A stretch of DNA of 64,000 nucleotides from Poriferisphaera corsica (lineage in GTDB: Bacteria > Planctomycetota > Phycisphaerae > Phycisphaerales > Phycisphaeraceae): contig NZ_CP036425.1 of NCBI RefSeq assembly GCF_007747445.1, forward strand, positions 2,836,175 to 2,900,174. The letters are read 5' to 3'. Made by a program: the position numbers and the translations under genes. The notes beneath the pieces are model-generated. The model worked only from the letters and a program-made list of their open reading frames with translations, did no database searches and was not told where the DNA came from. This document shows positions 1 to 7,704 of the stretch, piece by piece. How positions within the stretch are numbered: position 1 is the stretch's first letter; every line of letters starts with the position of its first letter.

Positions 1-239
1 TGGTTACCCGTCGTTTCAATGGCTGCCATTTTGTAAGGTGCAAGAACGCGCATTACCTTACTCACGCCCGGTGCCTGCTCCATTACTGCACAATCTTTTA
101 ATCGTTCATCACCGATCGCAGCAACAACCGTCAAATCGGTTCCCACGATCACTTGATCCTTCAATCCTAATTCTTTAATTAGCTTTTTCACGCCGTCAAT
201 CTCCGTTTCACTCGCCCCTGGTCTCATCACCACTATCAT
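1..239 (-). CDS. aroF: 3-deoxy-7-phosphoheptulonate (DAHP) synthase, N-terminal part, cut by window edge
   Basis: The frame opens at an ATG at 239 and runs off the left edge with 79 codons visible. The product begins MIVVMRPGASETEIDGV and continues with GDERLKD and LAPYKMA. These are the hallmarks of the ferredoxin-like regulatory N-domain found before the catalytic barrel in type I-beta DAHP synthases (the Thermotoga/Bacillus-like form). The enzyme joins phosphoenolpyruvate and erythrose 4-phosphate in the first step of aromatic amino acid synthesis. A Shine-Dalgarno AGGAG lies about 8 nt before the ATG. The gene follows an attenuator whose leader peptide is rich in aromatic residues (397-578), which fits an aromatic pathway gene. 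The catalytic domain is outside the window, so the call rests on the N-domain and this context. Confidence 0.82.
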   Translation of the reverse strand, partial: MIVVMRPGASETEIDGVKKLIKELGLKDQVIVGTDLTVVAAIGDERLKDCAVMEQAPGVSKVMRVLAPYKMAAIETTGN

Positions 240-396
240 GTCCAGACTCCTGTTTAGTTCTGCGTTCTTTTGAGCCAAACTTAGTAGTTTGACTTTGAAT
301 TTAAAATCGCCAATACCATTTATGAATTCGCATCATCACGTGCTTCCTTATTTTTCTCATCGTGACTTTGCCTCAATAACACACAATTACGACCAT

Positions 397-429
397 AAAA
401 AAACCCCGCTGCGTTAGCCGCTGCGGGGT
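397..429 (-). terminator. Intrinsic terminator of the aroF attenuator
   Basis: On the minus strand, arms CCCCGC and GCGGGG with an inner GCG/CGC pair (one A-A mismatch) close a five-base loop, followed by seven T at 403-397. It lies after the leader-peptide stop and about 160 nt before the aroF start, so it ends transcription within the leader unless it is prevented from forming. Confidence 0.88.
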
Positions 430-457
430 GATGGTGTTTTACCGTTAGTTCAGTCAC

Positions 458-544
458 TTATTGTGACCGAACGAATACCCAGCGCGGCTGTTTGCCGGTA
501 AACCAAAACCAAAAGAAATAAAATCGGTTAGTCGCTGAGTTCAT
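458..544 (-). CDS. Leader peptide, 28 aa, rich in Phe, Trp and Tyr
   Basis: A short frame runs from an ATG at 544 to a TAA at 458-460. Ten of its 28 residues are aromatic: six Phe, three Trp and one Tyr. Residues 8-15 are FYFFWFWF, a run with no plausible function other than sensing charged tRNAs. It lies immediately downstream of a strong promoter (551-578) and immediately upstream of an intrinsic terminator, and the next gene is aroF. The -10 box ends only six bases before the ATG, so the transcript probably starts at or next to the start codon and the peptide would be translated from a leaderless end. It is too short for most gene callers. Confidence 0.85.
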   Translation of the reverse strand: MNSATNRFYFFWFWFTGKQPRWVFVRSQ

Positions 545-550
545 GTCCGA

Positions 551-578
551 AGTATCGCACCTTTCCGGAGATTGTCAA
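551..578 (-). promoter_or_regulatory. Sigma-70-type promoter of the aroF leader
   Basis: On the minus strand a perfect TTGACA (578-573) is followed after 16 bp by GATACT (556-551). A TG one base before the -10 makes it an extended -10 box. The predicted start lies at about 544, on the leader ATG. Confidence 0.8.
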
Positions 579-678: not shown

Positions 679-1137
679 TTACGACTCACAACCACAAGCT
701 CGCTCTTCTTCCAAGTCCGCATCTACCGCCGCTAATCCCTTCTCAACACACTCTGGGCACAGTCCAAACAGCGTCAATTCGTGACCATCCACAACAAACC
801 CACCCGGCAATGTTGTCCCCTCCGGCAATGAAACCGGACACATGTGCAAATCGAATACACGCCCACAGACGCGGCATCGGAAGTGATGATGATGCCCTAA
901 ATGAGCCGCCTCATAGCGATTCTGACCATCTGGCAGAACCACACATTTGATCTGCCCACCTTCATGCAACGCCTTCACAATCCTGTAAACAGTTGCAATT
1001 CCCACCCCACACTGCGCATTCGCAATATCGTGTATCTCTTGTACAGTCAGTGGCCCCTCTGCCGTTTCAATGACCTGCTCAACACTCTTGCGTTGCACCG
1101 TATTACGCTTTGGATTATTCGTCTTTACTTCTGACAT
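679..1137 (-). CDS. Fur-family metal- or peroxide-responsive repressor
   Basis: This is a 152-residue member of the Fur/Zur/PerR family, which are dimeric DNA-binding repressors controlled by a bound metal. The winged helix appears in the first half (GVGIATVYRIVKAL, the recognition helix). It is followed by the metal-binding stretch HLGHHHHFRC and two CxxC zinc motifs (CRVC and CPEC). The sequence does not decide between Fur, Zur and PerR. The start is set at the ATG at 1137, preceded by GAGGAT, because the longer open frame upstream adds 44 residues unlike the family. The gene is separated from aroF by the aroF leader and its own promoter, so the two are probably not co-transcribed. No clear terminator was seen at its 3' end. 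Confidence 0.88.
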   Translation of the reverse strand: MSEVKTNNPKRNTVQRKSVEQVIETAEGPLTVQEIHDIANAQCGVGIATVYRIVKALHEGGQIKCVVLPDGQNRYEAAHLGHHHHFRCRVCGRVFDLHMCPVSLPEGTTLPGGFVVDGHELTLFGLCPECVEKGLAAVDADLEEERACGCES

Positions 1138-1944
1138 AACATCCTCATTTATTGATTGGCCATTATGCGCCAATAATTGCTTCCAGCATGCATACTCACG
1201 CCATCTCATCATTAAGTTTGACGATGCCTCAGACACATGTTCAAACCAACGCCGAGATACCAAATCCATCGCCGCACGACGAATTAATCGAACCTAACAA
1301 GCTAAGCGAAACTCGCCATATGTTTCAAACAAAAATACATATTCAATTCAACCCGTTTTCTTCAAAGATAGAATACTAGCTGGAATGCTTCTTCAACACA
1401 TGTACTAATCACATACGTCATCCCCTAATGCTAACGTACGCTTCCCCACTTTCGTGTATTTCCCTCACTACATATCACGATTGTACAAAAATATTTGAGA
1501 TCTGTGCAGTCCTATTCCTAAACATACCAAACATCTTCTTAGTCATTACAGGAGATTCCACAGATACCTCGATACATGCGACCATGTTCTCAATACCACA
1601 CTCCATATCTCGCAATGCATCCCATCCAAAGATAATACCGGCAAGACACAAGAACGTCTTTTAATTACGCGGCATCGATTAAATATCTTATTTTATAGAG
1701 GACAATGCAGATTCATCAATCATGCAATAATTTTCATGCGATACGAAACAACAACCACTACATCATCAAACAATGCGAAACTATTCGCATTTACATGATG
1801 CATCACAATTACACTGCTGACCCACTTTTCCACGATTCACAAGATCTCTCAAGACAAGATCAGAATTTAGGGTCATAAAAAACATTTTCTTGGACTGAAT
1901 CTAACCAACTATTAGGCATCTATGTAAAACCAATGCATCACACA
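1138..1944. other. Intergenic stretch, about 800 bp, no supported gene
   Basis: This AT-rich stretch lies between the Fur-family gene and the NUDIX gene. Short open frames of 75-80 codons exist on the + strand, but they show no recognisable domain, no good ribosome site and no codon bias. I see no tRNA, no intrinsic terminator and no clear repeat. It must hold the promoter of the minus-strand Fur-family gene, which I could not place confidently. Confidence 0.5.

Positions 1945-6189: not shown

Positions 6190-7704
<1,515 letters not shown>

Follow-up and report, generated by a model that had tools for sequence, protein, structure and literature searches.

The aroF gene of Poriferisphaera corsica KS4, a sponge-associated planctomycete of the class Phycisphaerae, is very probably governed by a ribosome-mediated transcription attenuator, in which aroF transcription would be set by the availability of charged tRNA-Phe, together with that of tRNA-Tyr and tRNA-Trp. 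The class of mechanism is a known one; its occurrence in Planctomycetota is what appears to be new. Sequence comparison suggests that an aromatic-sensing feedback switch of this kind appears to be widespread in the phylum.

The window (the whole stretch of DNA analysed, 64 kb) carries the parts of the device on its minus strand (Table 1). The original prediction had named a TTGACA-16-GATACT promoter, a 28-codon leader with 10 Phe, Trp or Tyr residues, a terminator with seven T, an antiterminator that takes up the terminator's 5' arm, and a DAHP synthase as the next gene, in a probable planctomycete. All of these were recovered, and the RNA folding that it proposed as a check finds the leader RNA more stable than shuffles (z = -3.47).

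Table 1. Layout of the predicted attenuator at the P. corsica aroF locus (coordinates in the 64-kb window)
Feature	Position	Strand	Remarks
-35 box TTGACA	573..578	(-)	TTGAC-type -35 box present in most family orthologues
Promoter spacer	16 nt between TTGACA and GATACT	(-)	TG precedes the -10 box
-10 box GATACT	551..556	(-)	end 6 nt upstream of leader ATG
Leader ORF MNSATNRFYFFWFWFTGKQPRWVFVRSQ	458..544	(-)	28 codons, 10 Phe/Trp/Tyr
Segment 1, CUCAGCG	533..539	(-)	pairs with 484-478 of segment 2; minimum-energy fold
Segment 2, antiterminator 5' arm	477..489	(-)	within leader ORF
10-bp hairpin over leader stop codon	448..472	(-)	between segments 2 and 3
Segment 3	416..429	(-)	common to antiterminator and terminator
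Intrinsic terminator	397..429	(-)	hairpin 429-404, then T7 at 403-397
aroF, DAHP synthase, 5' part	1..240	(-)	gene runs past window edge

Residues 8-15 of the leader are all aromatic. The window contains 903 ORFs of 8-45 aa that start with ATG, and only the aroF leader has such an 8/8 run (the runner-up reaches 5). When the 500 nt ahead of aroF were dinucleotide-shuffled 2000 times, the best run was 6/8, seen once. The antiterminator duplex (-20.9 kcal/mol) joins 489-477 to 429-416 through 12 bp, interrupted by a single bulge and a single mismatch. Promoter and terminator are each weak by their own statistics: positions 1-2000 hold 4 promoter-like sites for a shuffle mean of 4.4, no excess, and a simple terminator scan does not list the hairpin, probably because an A-A mismatch breaks its stem. 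Both are backed by conservation among relatives. Given the short distance from GATACT to the leader ATG, transcription likely starts on the A of that codon or on a neighbouring nucleotide, so that the P. corsica leader would be read from a leaderless mRNA. The aroF ATG itself, at 240, is preceded by AGGAG. The letters of segment 1 are identical in the congener L007; by eye, an equivalent was noticed in no other relative.

The aroF product is a PF00793 DAHP synthase with an N-terminal ferredoxin-like domain (PF18152), encoded by one of the three PF00793 genes in the genome (one contig, 4,291,168 bases). DAHP synthases with this domain are feedback-regulated in Thermotoga. The two remaining PF00793 genes, L001 and L003 (the latter taken to be the related KDO-8-P synthase), are without a comparable leader. 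Because an opposite-strand ORF, presumably a UbiA-like gene, meets aroF tail to tail, aroF is probably transcribed alone.

The arrangement suggests the following model. The small ORF, beginning at the very 5' end of the RNA or beside it, would be translated as soon as RNA polymerase makes the leader. With plentiful aromatic aminoacyl-tRNA, the ribosome would reach the stop codon and cover or disturb segment 2; segments 3 and 4 would then form the terminator, and transcription would end near 397. With scarce aromatic aminoacyl-tRNA, the ribosome would stall within the aromatic codons, its front edge just short of segment 2; segment 2 would pair with segment 3 before segment 4 exists, and aroF would be transcribed.

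Comparison of orthologues had been set as the test of this reading. Among 51 genomes searched from the host's GTDB family, 48 gave a match, and 44 hold close orthologues by table count. Forty-three aroF loci were fetched (an aroF fragment, G018, was left out), 41 of them with enough upstream sequence. Across all the samples, L022, L048 and L171 were excluded because their upstream sequence is too short. The aromatic leader is kept at 35/41 orthologues with a cut-off of 4/8 aromatics (shuffles 105/820), and windows of eight residues with at least five aromatics occur at 33/41 versus 11/820 shuffles. For seven leaders, an internal ATG was chosen manually as the start. The usual peptide reads ...GYFWFT-R-P-x-A-x-x-G, and aromatics make up about 30% of residues. 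The mixed content noted at the outset proved general: Phe occurs in all 35 family leaders, Trp in 31 and Tyr in 31, and this content matches the product pathway of aroF. The leader is absent in 5/41 orthologues, and the sixth exception, L043, has by eye a weaker GTG-started ORF and a terminator. At three loci without the aromatic leader (L026, L029 and L035), a tRNA gene (Leu, Leu and Thr, respectively) adjoins aroF at the place expected for the leader; the tRNA-Thr gene of L035 is on the strand opposite to aroF.

In 30/35 family leaders versus 135/3500 shuffles, a promoter-like site is placed such that 6-10 nt separate the end of its -10 box from the leader ATG (29/35 by top score only: in L039 the top-scoring promoter is far upstream and a short-distance one is also present). 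A Shine-Dalgarno-like motif was found in 1/35. Together, these two counts indicate that the transcript probably starts at or next to the leader ATG, which would make the mRNA of the family leaders a leaderless one.

This 5' end recalls trpL of Sinorhizobium meliloti, whose transcript, according to the excerpted text of PMC7298713, likewise starts at the leader ATG, although that leader is for Trp only, precedes trpE(G) and belongs to an alphaproteobacterium. The planctomycete layout matches that of the RNA rnTrpL. The terminated planctomycete transcript, of about 150 nt and probably a leaderless mRNA, might similarly act in trans, like rnTrpL/peTrpL, in addition to attenuating. We regard this added role as unlikely; all the conserved parts seen are explained by regulation in cis.

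Both alternative pairings are preserved among relatives with compensatory changes. In an alignment of the 35 family leaders (34 distinct rows), 87.5% of the 329 antiterminator cells and 93.5% of the 340 terminator cells are paired, and both partners have changed in 8/10 and 6/10 pairs, respectively; for each helix, 0/500 shuffles did as well. Further pair types of the antiterminator, another measure of covariation, were matched by 4/500 shuffles. When the partner is slid by 1-3 columns, pairing falls to 27-47% of cells. Family arms pair better with their own partner than when swapped between species (mean -20.4 vs -17.4 kcal/mol; 0/20,000 permutations equal), and 32/35 outdo 95% or more of their own shuffles. 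Outside the family, 43 leaders favour their own terminator over those of others (-19.0 vs -14.0 kcal/mol; 0/20,000 permutations equal); against shuffles of their own arms, 27 beat 95% and 16 do not. The cross-species permutations may gain from differing G+C, and the within-sequence shuffles are the stricter control. The set of 43 was drawn from both phylum samples described below, after removal of L172 and L137, in which no terminator was found, and of one duplicate with an identical peptide; L071 was omitted from A2. The conserved leader, the two pairings and their compensatory changes support the trp/phe-leader logic that had been proposed for P. corsica.

The spacing of the parts is narrow. 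The last aromatic codon is separated from segment 2 by 13 nt in 25/35 family leaders, and 7 nt lie between the end of segment 2 and the stop codon in 29/35. These distances would suit a stalled ribosome that leaves segment 2 free and a finishing one that covers it. Segment 2 lies inside the ORF with narrow spacing on either side, towards the aromatic run and towards the stop codon, which argues against a terminator under some other signal (a protein, a riboswitch or a T-box) with the small ORF a mere passenger. Sub-threshold Rfam likenesses to the PyrR (E 1.5) and 23S-methyl (E 0.65) leaders would point that way, but no Rfam family other than 16S rRNA reaches its gathering threshold in the window, and we consider a passenger ORF scarcely credible.

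Attenuation by the translating ribosome also accords with predicted static folding, in which the ribosome was modelled as a mask with an assumed footprint of 30 nt. When the mask sits on the last aromatic codon, the antiterminator of the nascent RNA exceeds 0.5 in 31/35 family leaders; when it sits at the stop codon, this is so in 1/35. The single case is the P. corsica leader itself (0.65). That leader is five codons above the commonest length, so a ribosome at its stop codon would leave segment 2 uncovered. Blocking may fall instead to segment 1 and the stop-codon hairpin, and as modelled the case for attenuation is weaker for P. corsica's own leader than for its relatives.

In full-length RNA with a stalled ribosome, the terminator exceeds 0.5 in 26/35. 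The antiterminator would therefore have to form first, the choice being made during transcription; classic attenuators are likewise decided while the RNA is being made. In nascent RNA with no ribosome at all, the antiterminator is predicted in 29/35, and in the P. corsica leader it reaches 0.88 despite the 7-bp pairing of segments 1 and 2. The device should accordingly stay open in the absence of leader translation.

Codon choice bears on what is sensed. Phe codons are TTT in 111/160 cases in the leaders versus 24/181 in the aroF genes, and the last Phe before the antiterminator arm (one per leader) is TTT in 34/35, earlier Phe codons in 77/119. The bias favours sensing at the codon level, with RNA sequence constraint as an alternative cause. 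A different sensor would be the peptide itself. TnaC arrests its own ribosome when a small molecule is bound, and an aromatic-rich leader peptide might do the same on binding a free aromatic amino acid or some other small molecule, leaving tRNA supply secondary. The family peptide is indeed conserved beyond bulk aromatics (GYFWFT-R-P in many leaders), but some of this follows from the RNA arm that the same codons encode, and outside the family the peptide varies freely while the aromatic content and, mostly, the arm pairing stay. The near-uniformity of TTT over TTC at the last Phe also points to codons, subject to the same RNA constraint, and an arrest triggered by surplus aromatic amino acids would boost their synthesis at the wrong time. 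Peptide sensing is thus very unlikely, and supply of charged tRNA remains the preferred signal.

How far does the device extend? A covariance model of the leader, run on 248 genomes of the class, matches 32/248 at E <= 0.001. These matches were set aside as a count of leaders, since many weak ones are plain terminators on inspection; a second match in the P. corsica genome, L079, was dropped as a plain terminator. Clear members occur in two other families of the class: the leaders that do lie ahead of DAHP synthase genes outside the host's family are L058, L059, L060 and L063 (f3), and L061, L065 and L071 (f10).

Two samples were taken across the phylum; they have some organisms in common and are not independent. 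The first comprises the best 80 named loci among the matches listed, 77 of them with enough upstream sequence (L144, whose gene start is missing, was left out). Within these best 80 listed, a leader with at least 5/8 aromatics precedes the gene at 38/77: 7/11 inside the family (3/220 shuffles) and 31/66 outside it (14/1320 shuffles), no leader reaching the threshold at the other 35/66. Among these same 80, the outside-family records with a leader include Bythopirellula, Pirellulales, Rhodopirellula, Planctomicrobium, Thermogutta and Brocadiaceae. The second sample, of 39 genomes outside the family with enough sequence, has a leader in 15, distributed over five groups (f42, 7/7; f54, 4/5; f70, 2/3; f73, 1/1; f75, 1/1), with zero in the other groups of that sample. 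A few of the phylum leaders, for example L104, L129, L180 and L204, may be chance. Outside the family, a -10 box lies 6-10 nt before the start in 15/46 aroF leaders and no promoter was found in 10/46; the claim of a leaderless start is accordingly confined to the family. A search of plasmids gave no DNA match.

The distribution follows descent in part. A tree was built from 95 DAHP synthases, of which 94 were labelled and 53 have a leader (21 of the 43 family loci included; L043 and six other loci set by hand to 'leader'). On it, the leader label changes 16 times versus 30.6 when shuffled (0/500), which indicates inheritance in blocks with losses or repeated gains. That the device occurs in Phycisphaerae, Pirellulales and Brocadiaceae alike points to an early origin within the phylum or, again, to repeated gain.

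Similar leaders precede other biosynthetic genes. A Leu-rich leader with a terminator-like hairpin lies ahead of leuA in 8/8 family genomes (L234-L241; two with an interrupted T run); that of P. corsica, L237, near 2933000 of G000:C1, reads MNNERSIRLSSIQLDLGLSLGLLILRS. Across the phylum, a Leu-rich leader is present at 9/30 leuA loci versus 11/600 shuffles. A second PF00682 gene, probably a citramalate synthase, is preceded by an Ile-rich leader and a terminator at 4/7 loci (L245, L246, L248 and L250 of L245-L251); the P. corsica example, L246, near 1983900 of G000:C1, is MTTANNSIIAIAIIITYPM. In these 12 leuA and citramalate-type leaders, the arms, chosen by hand, give a terminator pairing better than 94% or more of shuffles, and the arm region takes in the leader stop codon. 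A Trp/Tyr-rich ORF, AYWQVYWRRWQS, stands before trpE in the genus Poriferisphaera (L209, L210), without a clear terminator; no Trp-rich ORF was found before trpE in six other family genomes. Neither hisG nor pheA has a rich leader in the 8/8 genomes examined for each. The Rfam leader families (Trp, Phe, Leu, Thr and others) match the window only below threshold (E 0.12 to 8.3), and L237, L246 and L209 score nothing above the gathering scores of Rfam families.

A broader proposal can be framed from these observations, and we advance it tentatively, at somewhat less than even confidence: a large share of amino acid control in the Planctomycetota would rest on a set of attenuators (aroF, leuA, citramalate synthase, perhaps trpE), leaderless in Phycisphaerae, with the aroF device on by default and acting as a three-amino-acid OR gate. 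The leaderless start and the default-on state were computed for aroF leaders only. In the OR gate, shortage of Phe, Tyr or Trp alone would stall the ribosome before segment 2 and open the entry to the pathway.

Comparison with Escherichia coli marks out what is particular to the planctomycete device. The E. coli trp leader has a 1:2 anti-antiterminator, and it is not open when the leader is untranslated; E. coli aroF is under TyrR. Among the planctomycete aroF leaders, by contrast, only those of the genus Poriferisphaera were noticed to have a 1:2 pairing, and the untranslated RNA is predicted to be antiterminated in 29/35. The E. coli leaders serve one amino acid each, whereas the planctomycete ones mix Phe, Trp and Tyr. 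The general plan is shared: trpL, pheL (pheA) and pheST likewise rely on a product-rich ORF and attenuation by charged tRNA, as set out in the excerpted text of PMC11802643.

The closest described system is aroR-aroF of Corynebacterium glutamicum, in which a leader peptide with Phe-Tyr-Phe precedes a DAHP synthase gene (excerpts of PMC11802643 and PMC4046766), much as an aromatic leader peptide does here. When Phe is limiting there, ribosome stalling is reported to raise transcription of aroF (Neshat et al. 2014, cited in the excerpt of PMC11802643), and the supply of Tyr is reportedly without effect (excerpts of PMC11802643 and PMC4046766). C. glutamicum is an actinobacterium, however, and its Phe-Tyr-Phe differs from the planctomycete leaders, which are about 30% aromatic with Trp in 31/35; the resemblance is one of layout. 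The C. glutamicum ilvBNC leader peptide is reportedly made without a ribosome-binding site, as is probable here (a reference title in PMC4046766), but concerns branched-chain amino acids in another phylum.

The original prediction knew of no leader of this kind in planctomycetes; among the matches listed in open-licence full texts, no report of RNA-level amino acid control in Planctomycetota was found. The sole match listed that joins leader genes with Planctomycetes, PMC4833913, has passages on distances between leader and structural genes, and aroF, aromatic and phenylalanine are absent from its main text. In the main text of PMC2965389, a broad survey of attenuators, Planctomycetes are not mentioned, nor is aroF.

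Beyond the first reading of the locus, the comparisons add probable leaderless translation, a reach that seems to span the phylum, and candidate devices at leuA and citramalate-synthase-like genes. Ribosome-mediated attenuation of aromatic synthesis would be extended to another phylum, and likely functions are offered for small ORFs that annotation may miss. Planctomycete cells were once argued to separate transcription from translation; the model implies that the two are coupled there. P. corsica KS4 is a cultured type strain (DSM 103958; excerpt of PMC7783415), so the predicted attenuation is open to testing.

Two features of the neighbourhood deserve mention. A 16S rRNA gene at 6190-7698 looks unlinked, since no 23S rRNA match at gathering threshold occurs in the 64-kb window; a single 16S gene is reported for KS4 in the excerpt of PMC7783415. 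A gene for a Fur-family regulator (679-1269, minus strand) immediately precedes the attenuator in the same orientation.
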